A stretch of 64,000 nucleotides of DNA. Source: Frigoriglobus tundricola. Lineage in GTDB: Bacteria > Planctomycetota > Planctomycetia > Gemmatales > Gemmataceae. A program made the position numbers and the translations under genes. This document shows positions 1,444-20,969 of this stretch, piece after piece; the first letter of the stretch is position 1, and every line of letters starts with the position of its first letter. The notes below the pieces were generated by a model. The model was not told the origin of the DNA. It was given only the letters and a program-made list of their open reading frames with translations, and made no database searches. Location of the stretch: the NCBI RefSeq assembly GCF_013128195.2, contig NZ_CP053452.2, forward strand, positions 2,356,001 through 2,420,000, given 5' to 3'.

Positions 1444-2637
1444 ATGACCCCGCGCAAGTCCCCGCCCGCGCTCCGTCGTCACAAGCCCAGCAAACAAGGT
1501 GTGGTCACGCTCAACGGGCGCGACCATTACCTCGGTTACTGGCCGGACGGGCAGAAAAAAGCTCCATCGGATCTCCAAGCCGCCTACGACGCCCTCGTCG
1601 CCGAGTGGCTGGCCAACGGCCGCCGACCGACCGTCGAAGCCCCTCCTCCCCTCACCATCGCCGAACTGATTCTGCAATTCTGGGAGCGGTACGCGACCGT
1701 TTATTACCGCCACACCGACGGCACGCCTACCAGCGAGCAGGAGAACTATAAGCTGTCGCTCCGGCCGCTCCGCAAGCTGTTCGGTAAACTGCCGGCGGCC
1801 GAGTTCTCGCCCCTCAAGCTGAAGGCCGTCCGCCAGACGCTCATCGCCGCCGACGTCAGCCGCGGGGTCATCAACCAGCGGATCGGGCGGGTCAAGCGTT
1901 TGTTCAAGTGGGCCGTGGCCGAAGAGCTGGTTGGCGAACCCGTCCACCGCGCCCTGATGGCCGTTGAGGGGCTCAAGGCCGGCCGGTCCGAGGCTCGGGA
2001 GACGGACCGGGTCGAGCCGGTCCCGGACGAACACGTGGACGCGGTCCTCCCGTTCCTTCCGACGGCCCTGAGCGCGATGGTCCGTGTTCAGCGCCTGACC
2101 GGCATGCGACCCGGTGAGGCGGCCCAGATGCGCGGCCGCGACCTCGACACGACGGGCGAGGTGTGGGTGTACAAGCCGGCCCGGCACAAGACCACCTGGC
2201 GCGGCAAGGAGCGGGTCGTGCTACTCGGCCCGAAGTGCCGTGAGGTGCTGCGGCCCTTCCTGAAGCCCGATCCCGACGCGTATCTGTTCAGCCCGTGGGA
2301 CGCGCGGGAGGAACTGTTCGCAACGAAGCGGGCGGCCCGAAAGACGAAAGTTCAACCCAGCCAGATCTGTCGGCGGAAGGCGAAACCGCAGCGCAAGCCG
2401 GCCGCGTTCTACACCCGGCACACGTACGCGTCGGCCGTCGCCCGCGCCTGCGTGAAGGCGGGCGTCGCGCACTGGCACCCGAACCAGTTGCGGCACTCGC
2501 GGGCGACCGAGGTGCGCGGCGCGTTCGGGCTGGAGGCCGCACAGGTGGTGCTCGGGCACGCGCGGGCCAATGTCACGGAGGTGTATGCCGAGCGGAACCT
2601 GACGCTCGCCGCCCGCGTCGCCGCGGAGACGGGGTGA
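1444..2637 (+). CDS. tyrosine recombinase / phage-type integrase
   Basis: The 397-residue protein has an N-terminal SAM-like DNA-binding half (about residues 70-175) and a C-terminal catalytic domain. Visible catalytic residues are Arg222 in TGMRPGE, a lysine near 249, Arg350 in PNQLRHS, His372 in GHARANVTEV and the nucleophile Tyr381. The usual His of the HxxR box is Asn347, which I know as a frequent variant in planctomycete recombinases. Its place just after tRNA-Asp suggests that it catalyses integration of a mobile island at that tRNA. A start at 1444 fits the family length. Whether the element is still mobile cannot be judged from here. Confidence 0.9.
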   Translation: MTPRKSPPALRRHKPSKQGVVTLNGRDHYLGYWPDGQKKAPSDLQAAYDALVAEWLANGRRPTVEAPPPLTIAELILQFWERYATVYYRHTDGTPTSEQENYKLSLRPLRKLFGKLPAAEFSPLKLKAVRQTLIAADVSRGVINQRIGRVKRLFKWAVAEELVGEPVHRALMAVEGLKAGRSEARETDRVEPVPDEHVDAVLPFLPTALSAMVRVQRLTGMRPGEAAQMRGRDLDTTGEVWVYKPARHKTTWRGKERVVLLGPKCREVLRPFLKPDPDAYLFSPWDAREELFATKRAARKTKVQPSQICRRKAKPQRKPAAFYTRHTYASAVARACVKAGVAHWHPNQLRHSRATEVRGAFGLEAAQVVLGHARANVTEVYAERNLTLAARVAAETG

Positions 2638-5512: not shown

Positions 5513-6397
5513 GTGAAGAAGAAACGCCCCGACGAGCCGCAGCCCACCACGGCACGCCTGGAGAACCTGCGGCTCGCGGATCTGAGACCGCACCCGGACC
5601 AAGGCGACTACTTCCCCAACTACGGCAAACCCGAGCGTGAGGCGCTCAAGGCCGACATCCGGGTCAACAAACTCAAGCACCCAATCGTGGTGCTTCCGCC
5701 TGGCAACACCGCCGGGCTGCCGCCCTACACGATCCTGGAGGGGCACACCCGCCGCGAGATCCTGCTCGAACTCGGCGAGACGAAGACCGAGGCACTCGTC
5801 CGGTTCGACCTGATCGACGCGCCGCGGGCCGCGGTGGACGAGATCTTCTTGTCGGACAACAACGCGCGCCGCCACCCCAGCAAGCTCGACCAGGCGCGGG
5901 TCGCCGTGGGCCTGTACAAGTGTCGCCGCGCCAAACAGGGCCGGTCCGTCTCCGGCGACCTGTTCCAGCGCGAAGAACTCCGGGACCAGATCGGGGCCAT
6001 CTTCGGCATGTCGGGCCGGAACCTCGCTCGCTACCTGTCCGTCCTGGCCGCGCCGATCGAGGTGCAAAACGCGTTAGAGGCCAAAAAGGTCAAGCTGGTG
6101 GACGCCGCGAAGGTGGCGGCGATGTCGAAGGACGATCAGGCGCGTCTGGCCGCACGGCTCCAGGCCGGCGAGGACGCGCGGGCGGTGTTCGCCGCGTTCT
6201 TCGGCACGAAGTCCAACAAGCACGTCAAGACCGCCGACGCCGTCGCCTGCCTGGCCCGGAGCCTCAATCGCGCCGGGGCCGACTTCACGGACCGGCTCGA
6301 CAAGGTGAAGCCCGGTCCGGTGCGGGCGAACGCGGACGCCCTCCGCGCGGGCGCGAAGTTGATCCGGGCGCTGCTGGAGCGGATCGACGCCCCGTAG
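5513..6397 (+). CDS. ParB/Spo0J-like nuclease-domain protein
   Basis: The 294-residue product starts at GTG 5513 behind GGAG. Its N-terminal third is a ParB domain: LRLADLRPHPDQGDYF, the segment VNKLKHPIVV, and the phosphate-binding EGHTRRE motif at residues 76-82. A central helix-turn-helix-like region includes GAIFGMSGRNLARYLSVL. True chromosomal ParB proteins pair with ParA; no ParA gene is adjacent, so this is more likely an element-borne regulator or partition-like protein of the integrated island. The ParB fold is well supported; the cellular role is inferred. Confidence 0.8.
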   Translation: MKKKRPDEPQPTTARLENLRLADLRPHPDQGDYFPNYGKPEREALKADIRVNKLKHPIVVLPPGNTAGLPPYTILEGHTRREILLELGETKTEALVRFDLIDAPRAAVDEIFLSDNNARRHPSKLDQARVAVGLYKCRRAKQGRSVSGDLFQREELRDQIGAIFGMSGRNLARYLSVLAAPIEVQNALEAKKVKLVDAAKVAAMSKDDQARLAARLQAGEDARAVFAAFFGTKSNKHVKTADAVACLARSLNRAGADFTDRLDKVKPGPVRANADALRAGAKLIRALLERIDAP

Positions 6398-6526: not shown

Positions 6527-6687
6527 CAGAAGTACGGCATCGAGGAGACGTTGTCGGTCGGTGAGTTGATTGAGCGCTGGGCGAACGCGGCGTGGCCGGG
6601 ATATACGGCGACGGGTACGGTGCGGCACGGGCTACCTCACCGAGGGGGCGATGACGTACCCGACTCCGACGTCGGTGGTGGTGGTAA
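6527..6687 (+). pseudogene. reverse transcriptase, C-terminal fragment
   Basis: The reading frame gives KYGIEETLSVGELIERW and, after a frameshift near 6630, GYLTEGAMTYPTPTSVVV. These match residues 395-448 of the intact reverse transcriptase at 9679-11025 (EHGFEETVGVAELVERW, then GYLVEAALSYPTPTSNVW). The fragment is about 160 bases against 165 in the intact gene. It begins immediately after the 66-bp repeat, so a deletion has fused the repeat to the gene's tail. It cannot encode a polymerase, because all catalytic motifs are missing. Confidence 0.8.
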
Positions 6688-7347: not shown

Positions 7348-7491
7348 ATGGCGAGGACGAACGGCGCGACAACCGCGACGGTCGCGAAGAAGCCGCGGCT
7401 GTCGCTGACCAGCATGGCGGACCTGTGCGACGAGAGCACCGAGCCCGACTGGCTGGTCGAGCGGGTGCTGGTCCGCGACCAGCCGATGGTT
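7348..7491 (+). pseudogene. RepA-like ATPase, N-terminal fragment
   Basis: The first 48 codons, including KKPRLSLTSMADLCDE and PDWLVE, closely match the start of the intact ATPase at 12366. The similarity stops just before the Walker A motif and the frame then runs into unrelated sequence. Even the ribosome-binding region (GAGGTGGAATCCGATG) resembles that of the intact gene. The remnant marks the right end of the decayed upstream unit. Confidence 0.8.
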
Positions 7492-7524
7492 CGGAACTCT
7501 CAACAACTGACCAGGGAGACTCAG

Positions 7525-7734
7525 ATGGAATGCAAGCTCGTGATCCGGGCGGAAGCCCCGCCCGTCACCGGGTACGCGGACGAGGGCTTGGTGCTTGAGT
7601 TCGAGGACCTGGAGGATCTCACCTCCTGGCTGATGACGATCTGCGGGGATGCGGAGCACTGCCCGTACACCAAGATCCGCGCCTACGCCGAGCGGCTCGA
7701 ACGGGGTGCCGCTCGTGCCGCCGAGTGCCGGTGA
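7525..7734 (+). CDS. small hypothetical protein, 69 aa
   Basis: An ATG at 7525 behind GGGAG opens a 69-residue acidic protein containing VLEFEDLEDLTSWLMTICGD and YTKIRAYAERLERG. It is in frame with the truncated ATPase start upstream, so it could be read as a fusion, but its own ribosome-binding site and start argue for separate translation. It looks like a small soluble binding protein. I do not recognise a family. Confidence 0.5.
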   Translation: MECKLVIRAEAPPVTGYADEGLVLEFEDLEDLTSWLMTICGDAEHCPYTKIRAYAERLERGAARAAECR

Positions 7735-7830: not shown

Positions 7831-9262
7831 AAACGAACAACGCCGGGTGGTCGTCGAACTGCACGCGAGCCACCGGGCGACGATGGAGCCCGTCGTCGCA
7901 GCGGTGCGCGACTCTCTCCTGCGCTCGGTCATCGAGTTCGGGACCGGCGGCCCGCTCGGCCACACCATGGAGTTGGTGATTTCTGACGAGTTCGGGGAGG
8001 TCGTTCGCCGGTACGGGAGCGTCGGTCCCGAGGTCCAGACGCTCCCCCAGGGCTTGGTCCCCGAGGTCGTCGAGCGCCTCCGGGAACTGGGCCAAGAAGT
8101 CGAGGTGCGGGACCGCCGCACCGACTCGGACCGCTGGCGGGTGCGACCGGACTGGAAGCGGTGCGTGGAAAAAGCGCAGTGGGAGGTCGTGAGCGCCGTT
8201 GGCGAACACAGGGCGCTGCGCGTGGTCGGGTTCGATGATGACACCGTCGCGGACGCCGTCGCGAACGTCACTCGGGCCTACCCGGACGCCCGCATCGCCA
8301 TCGCCGTGCCCACCAACGCGCTTCTGGACCGGGTCCGGCGGCGGCTGGGCGAACGGCTCGTGAACCCACTGGGGCTGTTCACGGCAAAGAAGAAGCGGCC
8401 GGGGCGGGTGTCCGTGGGCCTCGTCGGGCAGTTCCCGAGGCAGTCCGGGAGCGAGTGGGACCTGTTGGTGCTGCCCTACGCCGAGGGCACCGTGAGCGAC
8501 GCCGCCCTGCGGGTCATCGCGTCGGGGCAGTACCAGAGACTGCTCTCGTTCTCGCGGGCGAAGTGGACGCGGGACGAGTCCATCAACCGGCGGTTCTTGG
8601 TCATTGCCGGGAGCACCTTCCCGGAGGAGCGGACACATGCGTCGGTGACCGCGGTGGTGCTGCCCGCGCACGGCACGCGGCCGGACGGGGTCATGCCGGA
8701 CGCACTCCAGGAGAAGAAGAAGCTCTACTGGCACAACGGGCGGCGCAACCGGCGCGTCGCGGAGGTCGCCCGGTGCCTCGTGAAGGCCAAGAAGAAGTCC
8801 GTGCGGTCGATCTTCAACGGCGACGAACCGTTGGTGAAAGAGGTCGTGGCGGCGGCAAAGTCCGGTGTCGCGGTCGTAGTGGAGACGCCGGTGCACGCAC
8901 GGGAATTCGCGGACCTGCTTCCGGGGTGGGTGATCTGGACCGCCAACGGGCTCGACGTCGCAGAGCCGGAGCCGGGGTGCGGCATCATCACTACCGAGAC
9001 GGCCGCGACGCAGTACGGGATCGGCGCGGGCGTCTTGATCCGGGCGACGGGGACGCGGTGGGCGCTGCCGGAGATCAACTGGCCCTCGGTACGCCGGGTC
9101 GAGAGCGCCGTCCTGATCGACTTCGCGGACGAGTTCCACCCGCAGGCGGCAAAGAACGCCGCGGCACGGACCCAAAGCTACCAGAAGGCCGGAATGACGG
9201 TTTGGACTCCCGAGGAAGTCCCGGCAACCGAACACCACGAGACCACGGGGGCGTCAGGATGA
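7823..9262 (+). CDS. degenerate SF2-helicase-like protein of RT unit
   Basis: The 479-residue protein has the layout of a superfamily-2 helicase. An N-terminal motif (LPQGLVPEVVERLRELGQEV followed by EVRDRR) resembles the leader domain of XPB-like helicases. A first RecA-like half contains AIAVPTNALLDRV and ends RFLVIAGSTF; a second half contains VVVETPVHAREFADLLPGW, ATGTRWALPE and IDFADEFHPQA. No GxGKT Walker A is visible, and where DEAH is expected the sequence reads LLVLPYAEG. It is probably an inactive, RNA- or DNA-binding helicase relative. The gene opens inside the 66-bp repeat and lies upstream of the reverse transcriptase with a 416-base gap. A truncated inverted homologue is found at 20505-20795. 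Confidence 0.6.
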   Translation: MSANEQRRVVVELHASHRATMEPVVAAVRDSLLRSVIEFGTGGPLGHTMELVISDEFGEVVRRYGSVGPEVQTLPQGLVPEVVERLRELGQEVEVRDRRTDSDRWRVRPDWKRCVEKAQWEVVSAVGEHRALRVVGFDDDTVADAVANVTRAYPDARIAIAVPTNALLDRVRRRLGERLVNPLGLFTAKKKRPGRVSVGLVGQFPRQSGSEWDLLVLPYAEGTVSDAALRVIASGQYQRLLSFSRAKWTRDESINRRFLVIAGSTFPEERTHASVTAVVLPAHGTRPDGVMPDALQEKKKLYWHNGRRNRRVAEVARCLVKAKKKSVRSIFNGDEPLVKEVVAAAKSGVAVVVETPVHAREFADLLPGWVIWTANGLDVAEPEPGCGIITTETAATQYGIGAGVLIRATGTRWALPEINWPSVRRVESAVLIDFADEFHPQAAKNAAARTQSYQKAGMTVWTPEEVPATEHHETTGASG

Positions 9263-9678
9263 TCCCCCCCTGGGGTGAGTGACCGGAATCATACCCGGCG
9301 CTCATCTCTACGGAAGGCGACTCATAACCGCCCCGTACGACCGACACGGAACCGGTCGCTAATAAGAGTTCCCAGGTGCTGTCCGCAGGAAAGGGTCGTT
9401 AACCGGATCATGATCCGACACGATCTGCACCAGCCGACAAGACCGGCTACCCGCTCTCAGGTAGGGGCTAATCCTCCCTCCCTGACCGGGGTCTCCTTCG
9501 GGAACCGTTAGGGCTGTTTCTTACACGGACAGCACGTACGGACCGCCCGGACGACGCCCCCTCTGCGGATGGCTTCGCCGATCCGGCGAAATTCGGCGCA
9601 TGCCGAATCTGGGGCGGCTCGGGCACGGACGCCCGGCCGCACCCGTTTTTCTTCGTTCCCGACGCTGAGGAGGACACG
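9263..9678 (+). ncRNA. candidate structured RNA between helicase-like and RT genes
   Basis: This 416-base interval has no supported gene but carries a run of stable inverted repeats. CGACCG/CGGTCG lies at 9338-9358, a perfect CGGATCA/TGATCCG palindrome at 9404-9417, AGCCG/CGGCT at 9432-9448, and TCAGGTAGGGG/TCCCTCCCTGA at 9457-9485. A UUCG-capped GGTCTCC/GGAACC stem lies at 9490-9506, and ATTCGGC/GCCGAAT at 9591-9608. The reverse transcriptase starts shortly after. It could be an RT-associated template or guide RNA, a group II-like intron remnant, or a regulatory leader. I see no clear group II domain V. Transcription is unproven. Confidence 0.4.
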
Positions 9679-11025
9679 GTGAGCGAAAAGGTAACCGCCG
9701 ACCTGCCGCACGACCCGTGCGCCTTCGCGTCGGTACTGTTCCACGCCGGCCACCCGGAGGACGTGCTGAATCGCTGGGTCAACCTCCTGCGCACGGTATC
9801 GCCGCGCGGTTGGGACGCGGTGAAGGTGTACGCCCCCGAGGTGATGAACCTGATCGCCGATCCCAGGGTGCTGTTCGTGGCCGCGGTCGCGCTCCGCGCC
9901 CGCGGGCCGAAGGCACCGGGGCGGAACGGCCTGCCGCTCGACGCGCTCTGCACCGACGAGTTGTGGAAGATGTGCACGGCCCTCGGCCACGCGATCCGCG
10001 CCGGCACCTACCGGCCGGGCACGGAGCGCGTCCGGTGGGTCGAAAAGGCGTCGCTCACCGGGAAGCGGCCGATCGTCATCTCCGACGTGCAGGACAAGGT
10101 GGTGCAGAAGGCGGCGGAACGGGTGCTTCGCTCGATGCTCGATCCGCACTTCGACCCGCTGAGCTTCGCCTTTCGGCCGTCGCGGGGGCGGTTCGAGGCA
10201 ATGGCCGTTGCCGAACAACTCGCCCGCAGTGGGCACCCGGTCTGGGTCACGCACGACTTGGTCGATGCGTTCCGGCGGGTGCCGGTGCCGCGCCTAATGG
10301 AGGTGTTCTTCAAGTTGCTCCCGTGCCCGCGCCTGCGCGCCTTCCTGGGCATGGTGCTGCCGGCGCAGTCACGCGCGGTGGGCGGGATCAAGCAGGGCGG
10401 ACCGCTCTCCCCGCTCGCGCTGGAAGTCTATCTGACGCACGTCCTCCACGGGCCGTGGCGCGGGGCCGGGCTCCCCGTTCGGCTCCTGCGGTACGCCGAC
10501 GACCTGTTGCTGACGGCCGCGGACGAGAACACCGCTTGTGCCGCCGACGCGGCGCTCCGCGTCCTGCTCGCCCCGACCGGCATGCGGCTCAAGCACACGT
10601 TCGAGGAGGCGCGGTGCGACCTCCGCTCGCAGCCCGCCGAGTGGCTCGGGTTCCGGTTCCGGCTCGACGGGGACCGGTTCCGAATCGACCTCGGGGCGCG
10701 GGCGTTCGAGAAGCTCGGGCGGCGGTTCGTCCTGGCGCACGCCAAGGCCCGTTCGGCCGACCGTGCGGTCGCGGTGCTGCGGCACTGGGTCGATCAACTG
10801 GGGCCGTGCTTCCCGCGGAAGAAGCGCGAGGTGGTCTGCACCAAGGCGATCCTGACGGCCCAGGAACACGGCTTCGAGGAGACGGTGGGGGTGGCCGAGT
10901 TGGTCGAGCGGTGGGAAGCGTCCGCGGAGCGGTGGAAGGCGATCCGGCGGCGGGTTCGGCGGAACCCCGGCTACCTGGTTGAGGCGGCGCTGAGCTACCC
11001 GACGCCGACGTCGAACGTGTGGTAA
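9679..11025 (+). CDS. reverse transcriptase (RNA-directed DNA polymerase)
   Basis: The 448-residue enzyme starts at GTG 9679 after GAGGAG. Conserved RT blocks occur in order: GKRPIVISDVQDKVVQ (about 128-144), FAFRPSRG (163-170), the first catalytic Asp in THDLVDAFRR (D193), QGGPLSPLALEVYL (239-252), the YADD active site at 272-275, and WLGFRF at 322-327. The fingers resemble group II intron RTs, but I see no HNH endonuclease and no typical retron NAxxH or VTG motif. No cas1 or CRISPR array is nearby. The C-terminal 120 residues form a thumb-like extension ending YPTPTSNVW, which is retained in the decayed copy at 6527-6687. The substrate RNA is unknown; the structured interval upstream is a candidate. 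Confidence 0.9.
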   Translation: MSEKVTADLPHDPCAFASVLFHAGHPEDVLNRWVNLLRTVSPRGWDAVKVYAPEVMNLIADPRVLFVAAVALRARGPKAPGRNGLPLDALCTDELWKMCTALGHAIRAGTYRPGTERVRWVEKASLTGKRPIVISDVQDKVVQKAAERVLRSMLDPHFDPLSFAFRPSRGRFEAMAVAEQLARSGHPVWVTHDLVDAFRRVPVPRLMEVFFKLLPCPRLRAFLGMVLPAQSRAVGGIKQGGPLSPLALEVYLTHVLHGPWRGAGLPVRLLRYADDLLLTAADENTACAADAALRVLLAPTGMRLKHTFEEARCDLRSQPAEWLGFRFRLDGDRFRIDLGARAFEKLGRRFVLAHAKARSADRAVAVLRHWVDQLGPCFPRKKREVVCTKAILTAQEHGFEETVGVAELVERWEASAERWKAIRRRVRRNPGYLVEAALSYPTPTSNVW

Positions 11026-20395: not shown

Positions 20396-20506
20396 ATGAC
20401 CGCGAACAGCACCCGCGGCGCGTTCCCCCGGGCGTCCGCCGCCGTGCTGCTCGTTCCCGCGACCGCGACCGCCGCCAACCCGAAGGCGAAGTCGACCAGC
20501 GTGATT
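20396..20506 (+). pseudogene. truncated gene with signal-peptide-like start
   Basis: An ATG with GAGGA upstream opens MTANSTRGAFPRASAAVLLV, then PATATAANPKAKSTS, which looks like the start of an exported protein. The natural sequence ends near 20504, where an inverted fragment of a helicase-like gene begins; beyond it the frame reads antisense of that fragment. The remainder of the gene is missing. Confidence 0.45.
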
Positions 20507-20795
20507 ACCCGAGTTCCTCCAGCCATTCACAAACACCGGCGACCAGACCCTGCGGCAGGATCTGAACGTCCGGGCGGACGACGCAGTTGCCTTCGCGTTG
20601 CCGGTGCTGAACGACGGGCGTGAGGTACGTCGACCGGGCCGCCCGCATCCGGTGCCCCAGGGGATCGCCGGAGTCGAATTCGACGACCGTTCGCGTGAGG
20701 TACTCGTGGATCTCGGGTACGACGGGTTCCAGGGTCGCCCAGTGGCCCTTCCAAATGTCGATCCGGGCCGTTCGCCGCGGGGTTCTCGTCCTCAT
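20505..20795 (-). pseudogene. helicase-like gene remnant, inverted
   Basis: On the minus strand this frame gives HWATLEPVVPEIHEY, then VVEFDSGDPLGHRMR, then LPQGLVAGVCEWLEELG, followed by a stop at the junction. It matches the first 100 residues of the helicase-like protein at 7823-9262, which reads HRATMEPVV, VIEFGTGGPLGH and LPQGLVPEVVERLRELG. Everything downstream is deleted. The same frame stays open to about 20925 with an unrelated stretch containing AAALECCRIAVSGEGNGLRD, so it may itself be a fusion of two remnants. Confidence 0.7.
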
Positions 20796-20969
20796 GAGAG
20801 GCACCGGGACGTTCTCCCGGAGTCGATCCCGGAGTCCATTGCCCTCGCCCGAGACCGCGATCCGGCAGCACTCCAGGGCGGCTGCCGACTGGACCGGCGA
20901 GATGGCGTACGGTGGGGCACCGCACGATCATCCAAGCGGGTAGCGCGTCGTGGCCCAGGCTCGCAGTCG

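Follow-up and report, generated by a model that had tools for sequence, protein, structure and literature searches.

Bacterial reverse transcriptases (RTs) that work with a partner RNA have repeatedly shown unexpected chemistry, including the msDNA of retrons, gene synthesis by DRT2, and the telomere-like repeats of DRT10. Retrons carry a structured RNA just upstream of the RT gene, and the known cases depend on RNase H1 (PMC8989520). Similarly, a dedicated noncoding RNA (ncRNA) adjoins the RT gene in DRT2, DRT9, and DRT10, whose RTs belong to the UG class (PMC12632851, PMC12489045, PMC12596737). A further set, G2L5, consists of group II-like RTs from the planctomycetes Gimesia maris and Blastopirellula marina; as described in two papers, these RTs lack a recognized intron RNA and remain unplaced, in no supported group (PMC4244168, PMC8934634). 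The former excluded G2L5 from its data set as unplaced (PMC4244168), and the latter, which presents myRT, found two Gimesia G2L5 sequences hard to assign (PMC8934634). Planctomycete group II-like RTs are so far unplaced and have no assigned function.

Here, we describe an RT locus of the planctomycete Frigoriglobus tundricola, contained in a stretch of 64,000 nucleotides (contig NZ_CP053452.2, positions 2,356,001 to 2,420,000) that we call the window. Its features are listed in Table 1, and homologous loci are denoted by L numbers. From left to right, the locus comprises an integrase gene, a ParB-like gene, a helicase-like gene, the interval under study, the RT gene, an LRR-type gene, and an AAA_25 gene. 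A gene near the RT locus encodes a TIGR02996 domain, which is named after Gemmata obscuriglobus. ParB-like homologs also occur near the helicase-like gene at L053, L054, L056, L062, L069, L070, L089, L090, and L092. Homologous integrases lie beside a tRNA in the window, L062, and L058, and several copies of the module ride on tRNA-adjacent integrative elements. A direct repeat of the tRNA end that would mark the far border of the element was not found, except for a 14-nt match within the window.

Table 1. Features of the locus, in positions of the window
Feature	Positions	Strand	Basis and remarks
Tyrosine integrase	1444..2637	+	Pfam Phage_integrase 1.6e-15; adjoins tRNA-Asp (1250-1323)
ParB-like gene, recurrent third gene of module	5513..6397	+	Weak Pfam ParB HTH match
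SF2 helicase-like gene, UvsW/XPB fold, 537 codons	7649..9262	+	AlphaFold2 and motif survey
Whole structured RNA, ~400 nt, P1 to U-tract after P13	9247..9650	+	Extent inferred, ends unmapped; interval conserved in L054, L055
P1, GGGGG[C]GUCA-GGA-UGAUCCCCC	9247..9268	+	Spans helicase-like stop codon 9260-9262
P2	9272..9308	+	Single hairpin in three homologs, differing sequence, compensatory changes
P3, outer UACGG/CCGUA invariant	9309..9337	+	Inner stem wholly replaced
P4, CGACCG/CGGUCG	9338..9358	+	Nearly invariant
P6, contains palindrome 9404-9417	9394..9425	+	Other complementary stem in L054; weaker in L055
P7, AGCCG/CGGCU	9432..9448	+	Conserved in three homologs
P8	9457..9485	+	Outer and inner stems compensatory
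P9, long irregular, holds CC-UUCG-GG	9488..9560	+	Folding of homologous segments
P11, basal stem, GGC-UUC-GCC, one bulged G	9567..9584	+	Family-wide hallmark; covariation and covariance-model tests
P12	9591..9608	+	Inverted repeat; complementary with differing letters across homologs
P13, GC-rich, then GUUUUU, terminator-like 3' end	9611..9650	+	Sequence; compensatory changes in L055
RT, group II-like, 448 aa, RYADDLL	9679..11025	+	Pfam RVT_1 6e-20

The window also holds fragments of three of these genes: one of the RT C terminus (6585-6677, plus strand, 58%), one of the N terminus of the AAA_25 protein (7348-7545, plus strand, 50%), and one of the helicase-like N terminus (20505-20804, minus strand, 44%, with one stop). 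These appear to be remnants of earlier copies, which suggests module turnover. Elsewhere in the family, a protein with a weak HTH match (L092, 6703-7737) recurs near the RT at L058, L059, L061, L063, L064, L067, L068, L069, and L085, and no homolog of it was seen in the window. Two very similar copies in genome G688 (L165 and L166) have approximately 1,350 nt between the helicase-like gene and the RT, far more than elsewhere. At L074 and L082 (genome G506, contigs C69 and C73), a contig end cuts off the RT in both cases so that its C terminus starts at residue 397, as would happen if two copies with identical upstream parts had collapsed in assembly.

A sequence-only reading of this DNA had described 9263-9678 as a hairpin-rich noncoding interval and a candidate functional RNA linked to the adjacent RT. 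The plus strand of this interval has a folding energy of -193 kcal/mol (z = -5.3; none of the shuffled sequences did as well), compared to z = -3.0 for the reverse strand. In a scan of 7.6-12.5 kb with sliding 200-nt segments, the lowest run of plus-strand z values coincided with the interval (-1.7 to -2.7); segments outside it averaged 0.1 (standard deviation, 1.0), with the 5' end of a neighboring gene reaching -2.2. The interval is thus better folded than shuffled sequence, but the conserved structure begins some 16 nt earlier than proposed, at 9247, where it overlaps the end of the helicase-like open reading frame. The inverted repeats are present, including a perfect 14-nt palindrome, CGGATCATGATCCG (9404-9417). 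The UUCG-capped repeat is also there, as a CC-UUCG-GG motif near 9496-9503, but it is not itself a conserved unit and its segment forms part of the longer helix P9. No relevant match was found in Rfam at gathering or lenient thresholds, a simple terminator scan did not list P13, and a sigma-70 promoter scan returned no match. Since hairpins come cheaply in GC-rich sequence, we placed weight on the comparison of homologs.

Two loci in genomes of the same genus carry the same gene pair with the interval between, and their RTs are 69% (L008/L054) and 63% (L009/L055) identical to the window RT. The three intervals are a mix of invariant blocks and blocks changed beyond recognition. A consensus fold on a plain MAFFT alignment yielded a slightly unfavorable covariation term, probably because diverged stems were misaligned, and helices were therefore compared segment by segment. 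Cut at the invariant blocks, most changed segments fold alike in the window, L054, and L055. The helices P1 to P13 were assigned manually from these three sequences, and the stems of P1, P2, inner P3, P6, P8, and P12 are complementary in every homolog while their letters differ. The pairs of P1 are kept with changes in L054 and L055, and a P1-shaped hairpin with an AU-to-GC change sits at the same place in L063/L064. None of 200 shuffles folded as well as P2 in any of the three homologs. The inner stem of P3 reads GGCG/CGCC, GUGGA/UCCAC, and GCAG/CUGC in the three, with 0, 0, and 3 of 200 shuffles as good. Not every helix is equally clear: the long outer helix of P9 is evident in L055, imperfect and weaker in the window, and unsupported in L054, where P12 and P13 are also weak. 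The sequence-only reading had named such compensating changes as the evidence to look for. We have little doubt that a conserved structured RNA lies here.

More distant relatives keep the arrangement of a helicase-like gene, a gap of 300-510 nt, and an RT; one of them is another copy within the genome that holds the window (36% RT identity). In each gap, a single GGC-U[UC]C-GCC-like apex, corresponding to P11, precedes the RT start by about 87-113 nt (AGC-UUC-GCA in L064). Because these copies were located by apex string and position, their basal stem was not selected. Across nine such upstream-class sequences, with RTs down to 29% identical, 88.9% of cells are paired, versus 67.1 +/- 3.5 in shuffles, and there are 20 double-change cells, versus 6.8 +/- 2.2 in shuffles and at most 7 in slid controls. 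The covariation score is 0.596, versus 0.206 +/- 0.053 for shuffled and at most 0.173 for slid versions. A set of 16 sequences scores 0.626, but stem pairing had played a part in finding or adding seven of these, and the nine-sequence figure is the cleaner one.

In other relatives, a first scan pointed to a P11-like hairpin directly 3' of the RT. To avoid circularity, we trained a covariance model (model R2) only on the nine upstream copies, and in most of the held-out relatives it recovered P11 at that position. Searched against 441 kb, model R2 matched L091 (E = 4e-5), L086 and L087 (0.0016), L088, L090, and L105 (0.008), L058 (0.009), and L089 (0.07); all of these matches are on the strand of the RT, directly beyond its palm, and the first off-target match appears at 0.07. 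Among RT loci added later, L145 (4e-4) and L153 (1e-3) match at the same place, while L151 scores 0.09 against an off-target match at 0.08. Where P11 was found outside the clade of the window, it lies mostly just 3' of the RT coding region or in its C-terminal linker. Its placement is precise, at 87-110 nt before the RT start or 19-44 nt past the projected RT end. The linker position holds for clade D, where P11 falls within the coding linker between the RT and an RNase H domain; its stems show paired changes (GCUGAC/GUCAGC, GCUGGU/GCCAGC, and CCUGAU/AUCAGG), and the loops of the following hairpins are variable.

P11 is tightly linked to this RT family. A control set of 13 ordinary group II RTs forms a separate clade with neither a clear P11 nor a helicase-like gene. 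A clear P11 occurs at only about 22 of the 48 family loci, and the tally against the controls gives p = 0.002 for a list that includes the training sequences. At genome scale, the 27-position model is too short to be specific, with 21 of its best 30 matches lying away from any RT. The upstream class forms one group in a quick RT tree (support, 86), which suggests a single relocation of P11. RT homologs were absent from IMG/VR, and phage and plasmid records yielded only distant RTs. Scans of genome contigs found none at first and, in a second round, two clade D loci in Planctomycetaceae metagenome-assembled genomes resembling the G546 and G539 contigs. With stems that covary and a key hairpin that follows the RT family, the RNA is, as judged from sequence, very probably tied in function to the adjacent RT, as had been proposed.

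The window RT matches only RVT_1 in Pfam, with no maturase (GIIM), HNH, or endonuclease domain, and scores 106 bits against TIGR04416, under the cutoff of 300. A profile of the RT family matches 6ar1 at 6e-43, and the sequence matches group II and DGR RTs. The predicted fold is closest to DGR (Z = 27.2), GsI-IIC (26.8), and G2L4 (26.3) RTs and also matches the RTs of R2 elements and LINEs. In PADLOC, the general RT model scores 112 bits, compared to 37 for Drt9, 32 for UG39, and 29 for UG26. Among distant relatives, L058, L059, L061, L176, L178-L181, L068, and L069 show no recognizable YxDD at the RT active site. These RTs may be degenerate or divergent, and catalysis may not be universal in the family.

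A helicase-like homolog lies just upstream of most family RTs. The window protein has no Pfam match, but its AlphaFold2 model (pLDDT 80) resembles T4 UvsW (Z = 19.3 over 239 residues) and also matched XPB. The Walker A motif GK[ST] is absent from the 11 helicase-like proteins surveyed, the motif II position reads WDLLVLP or similar rather than DExH in the members inspected, and the motif V and VI regions keep conserved positions. The model and the motifs together indicate an SF2 fold that has lost its ATPase motifs. UvsW unwinds branched DNA and R-loops, and by analogy a role in RNA:DNA binding is attractive for the helicase-like protein. The RTs of clade D carry a fused RNase H domain (Pfam 3e-36 at L090), and one is weakly recognizable in clade C (8.6e-4 at L063).

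We lean toward the reading that the interval encodes an ncRNA of approximately 400 nt, cognate to the group II-like RT encoded downstream, and that this RT would bind the ncRNA through P11 and copy it into cDNA. The transcript would begin over the helicase-like stop codon, pass through some ten hairpins, and end at a terminator-like hairpin. The RT may bind P11 at the 3' end of the RNA and copy the sequence 5' of it, a templating step that we rate only slightly above an even chance. RNase H, which two relative clades carry as an RT fusion and which the host presumably supplies otherwise, would remove the template, and the helicase-like protein might act as a scaffold that binds RNA or RNA:DNA. 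In the clade of the window, P11 would have moved upstream onto a free-standing RNA; if true, this move shows how an RT acquires a dedicated template. What the module is for is a guess: defense or upkeep of the element is most likely, and defense in particular is a possibility that falls somewhat short of even.

Several observations count against a cognate template. More than half of the family loci are without a clear P11, several distant relatives lack a recognizable YxDD, and most of the best genome-wide P11 matches are remote from RTs. In addition, a free-standing template has no need of the clade D P11, which sits in the coding sequence of the RT-RNase H linker, and an open frame crosses much of the gap in clade C.

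The main rival to a templating RNA is regulation by a bound RT. The interval would then be a cis-regulatory RNA that controls how much RT is made, either the 3' untranslated region of the helicase-like gene or an attenuator-bearing leader of the RT gene. Feedback through RT-P11 contact is one example, and this RNA would not need to be reverse transcribed. P13 and its U-tract are terminator-like and lie between two genes, P1 overlaps the helicase-like stop codon, and in the downstream class P11 is found within the RT coding sequence or directly behind it, where feedback of the RT on its own mRNA is conceivable. However, about 300 nt of additional conserved helices is large for an attenuator, P11 could not be a leader in the many relatives where it is 3' of the RT, and the RNase H fusions point to an RNA:DNA product. 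On balance, we regard pure regulation as unlikely, if worth keeping in view. Less probable by a good measure is the end of a retroelement, in which P11 to P13 would be either the 3' recognition site of a self-mobilizing RNA copied during target-primed integration, as in R2 elements and LINEs, or what is left of a group II intron. In its favor, a group II-like RT is present whose fold also fits R2 and LINE RTs, and P11 stands near the end of the molecule, 3' in the RNA here and at the end of the RT gene in many relatives, but the RT has no endonuclease or maturase domain, Rfam finds no group II RNA, several loci lie within larger elements with tyrosine integrases, and the RNA occurs once in the host genome.

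Protein coding fares worst. As the sequence-only reading held in stating that no gene fits, no plus-strand frame is open throughout the interval in the window, nor in L054, L055, L053, L062, or L092, and the antisense open reading frames at 9468-10007 and 9508-10254 are expected at high GC content. The gap of L063, L064, and L085 does hold a frame of 125-167 codons, which begins at an ATGA over the helicase-like stop and runs along the RNA. In its favor, dN/dS is 0.49 in L063/L064 (0.8-0.9 in other frames); against it, clade C substitutions are spread over the codon positions (20/24/32, versus 55/39/125 in the RT gene), and taken together these two tests are ambiguous. P11 covaries independently of any frame, and a small protein in place of RNA, at least in some clades, is very improbable. 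By sequence, the interval appears clearly noncoding in the clade of the window and less clearly so in clade C.

By the features tested, the system is not a retron, a DGR, or an intact group II intron. The retron RT motifs NAxxH and VTG are absent from the window RT on inspection. There is no template/variable repeat pair as in DGRs, since a search of the genome found no near-identical sequence besides the interval itself. For a group II intron, domain V/VI is missing (Rfam gave nothing at gathering score for the window and nine relatives, nor any match with E up to 5 in the surroundings of the RT), as are maturase and HNH domains, with RVT_1 as the sole Pfam match and TIGR04416 below its cutoff. 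As in retrons, a structured RNA lies directly upstream of the RT gene; unlike in retrons, the shared RNA element is at the 3' end, the RNA is about 400 nt long, and RNase H is sometimes fused to the RT. DRT2, DRT9, and DRT10 likewise pair an RT with an ncRNA beside its gene, the linked RNA here being known from sequence, but the window RT scores much higher with models of general and group II RTs than with Drt9, and the partner is a helicase-like protein instead of the SLATT protein of DRT10. The fold and sequence of the RT are close to those of GsI-IIC, DGR, and G2L4 RTs, whereas its RNA lies upstream or just 3' of the RT instead of surrounding it as in group II introns.

What emerges looks like an undescribed enzyme-plus-RNA system. 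We tentatively propose a separate bacterial RT-RNA class. Its proteins would be a group II-like RT and a UvsW-like partner that is ATPase-dead, joined in many cases by a ParB-like protein and in some by an RNase H domain fused to the RT. Its RNA would be recognized via a 3' P11; this hairpin would have originated at the end of the RT mRNA and moved in one lineage to a dedicated upstream template RNA of 350-500 nt, copied into functional cDNA. The conserved RNA, its defining hairpin, and the fixed partner genes make the function of the RT directly testable. An RNA or helicase partner of planctomycete group II-like RTs is not described in the open literature searched, and an earlier description may exist elsewhere. 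The nearest described relatives may be the G2L5 RTs, which, compared by description only, are likewise planctomycete group II-like RTs without a recognized intron RNA; the available portions of those descriptions make no mention of an RNA partner, a helicase-like neighbor, or an RNase H fusion, whereas a linked RNA, such a neighbor, and such fusions occur in the family described here.
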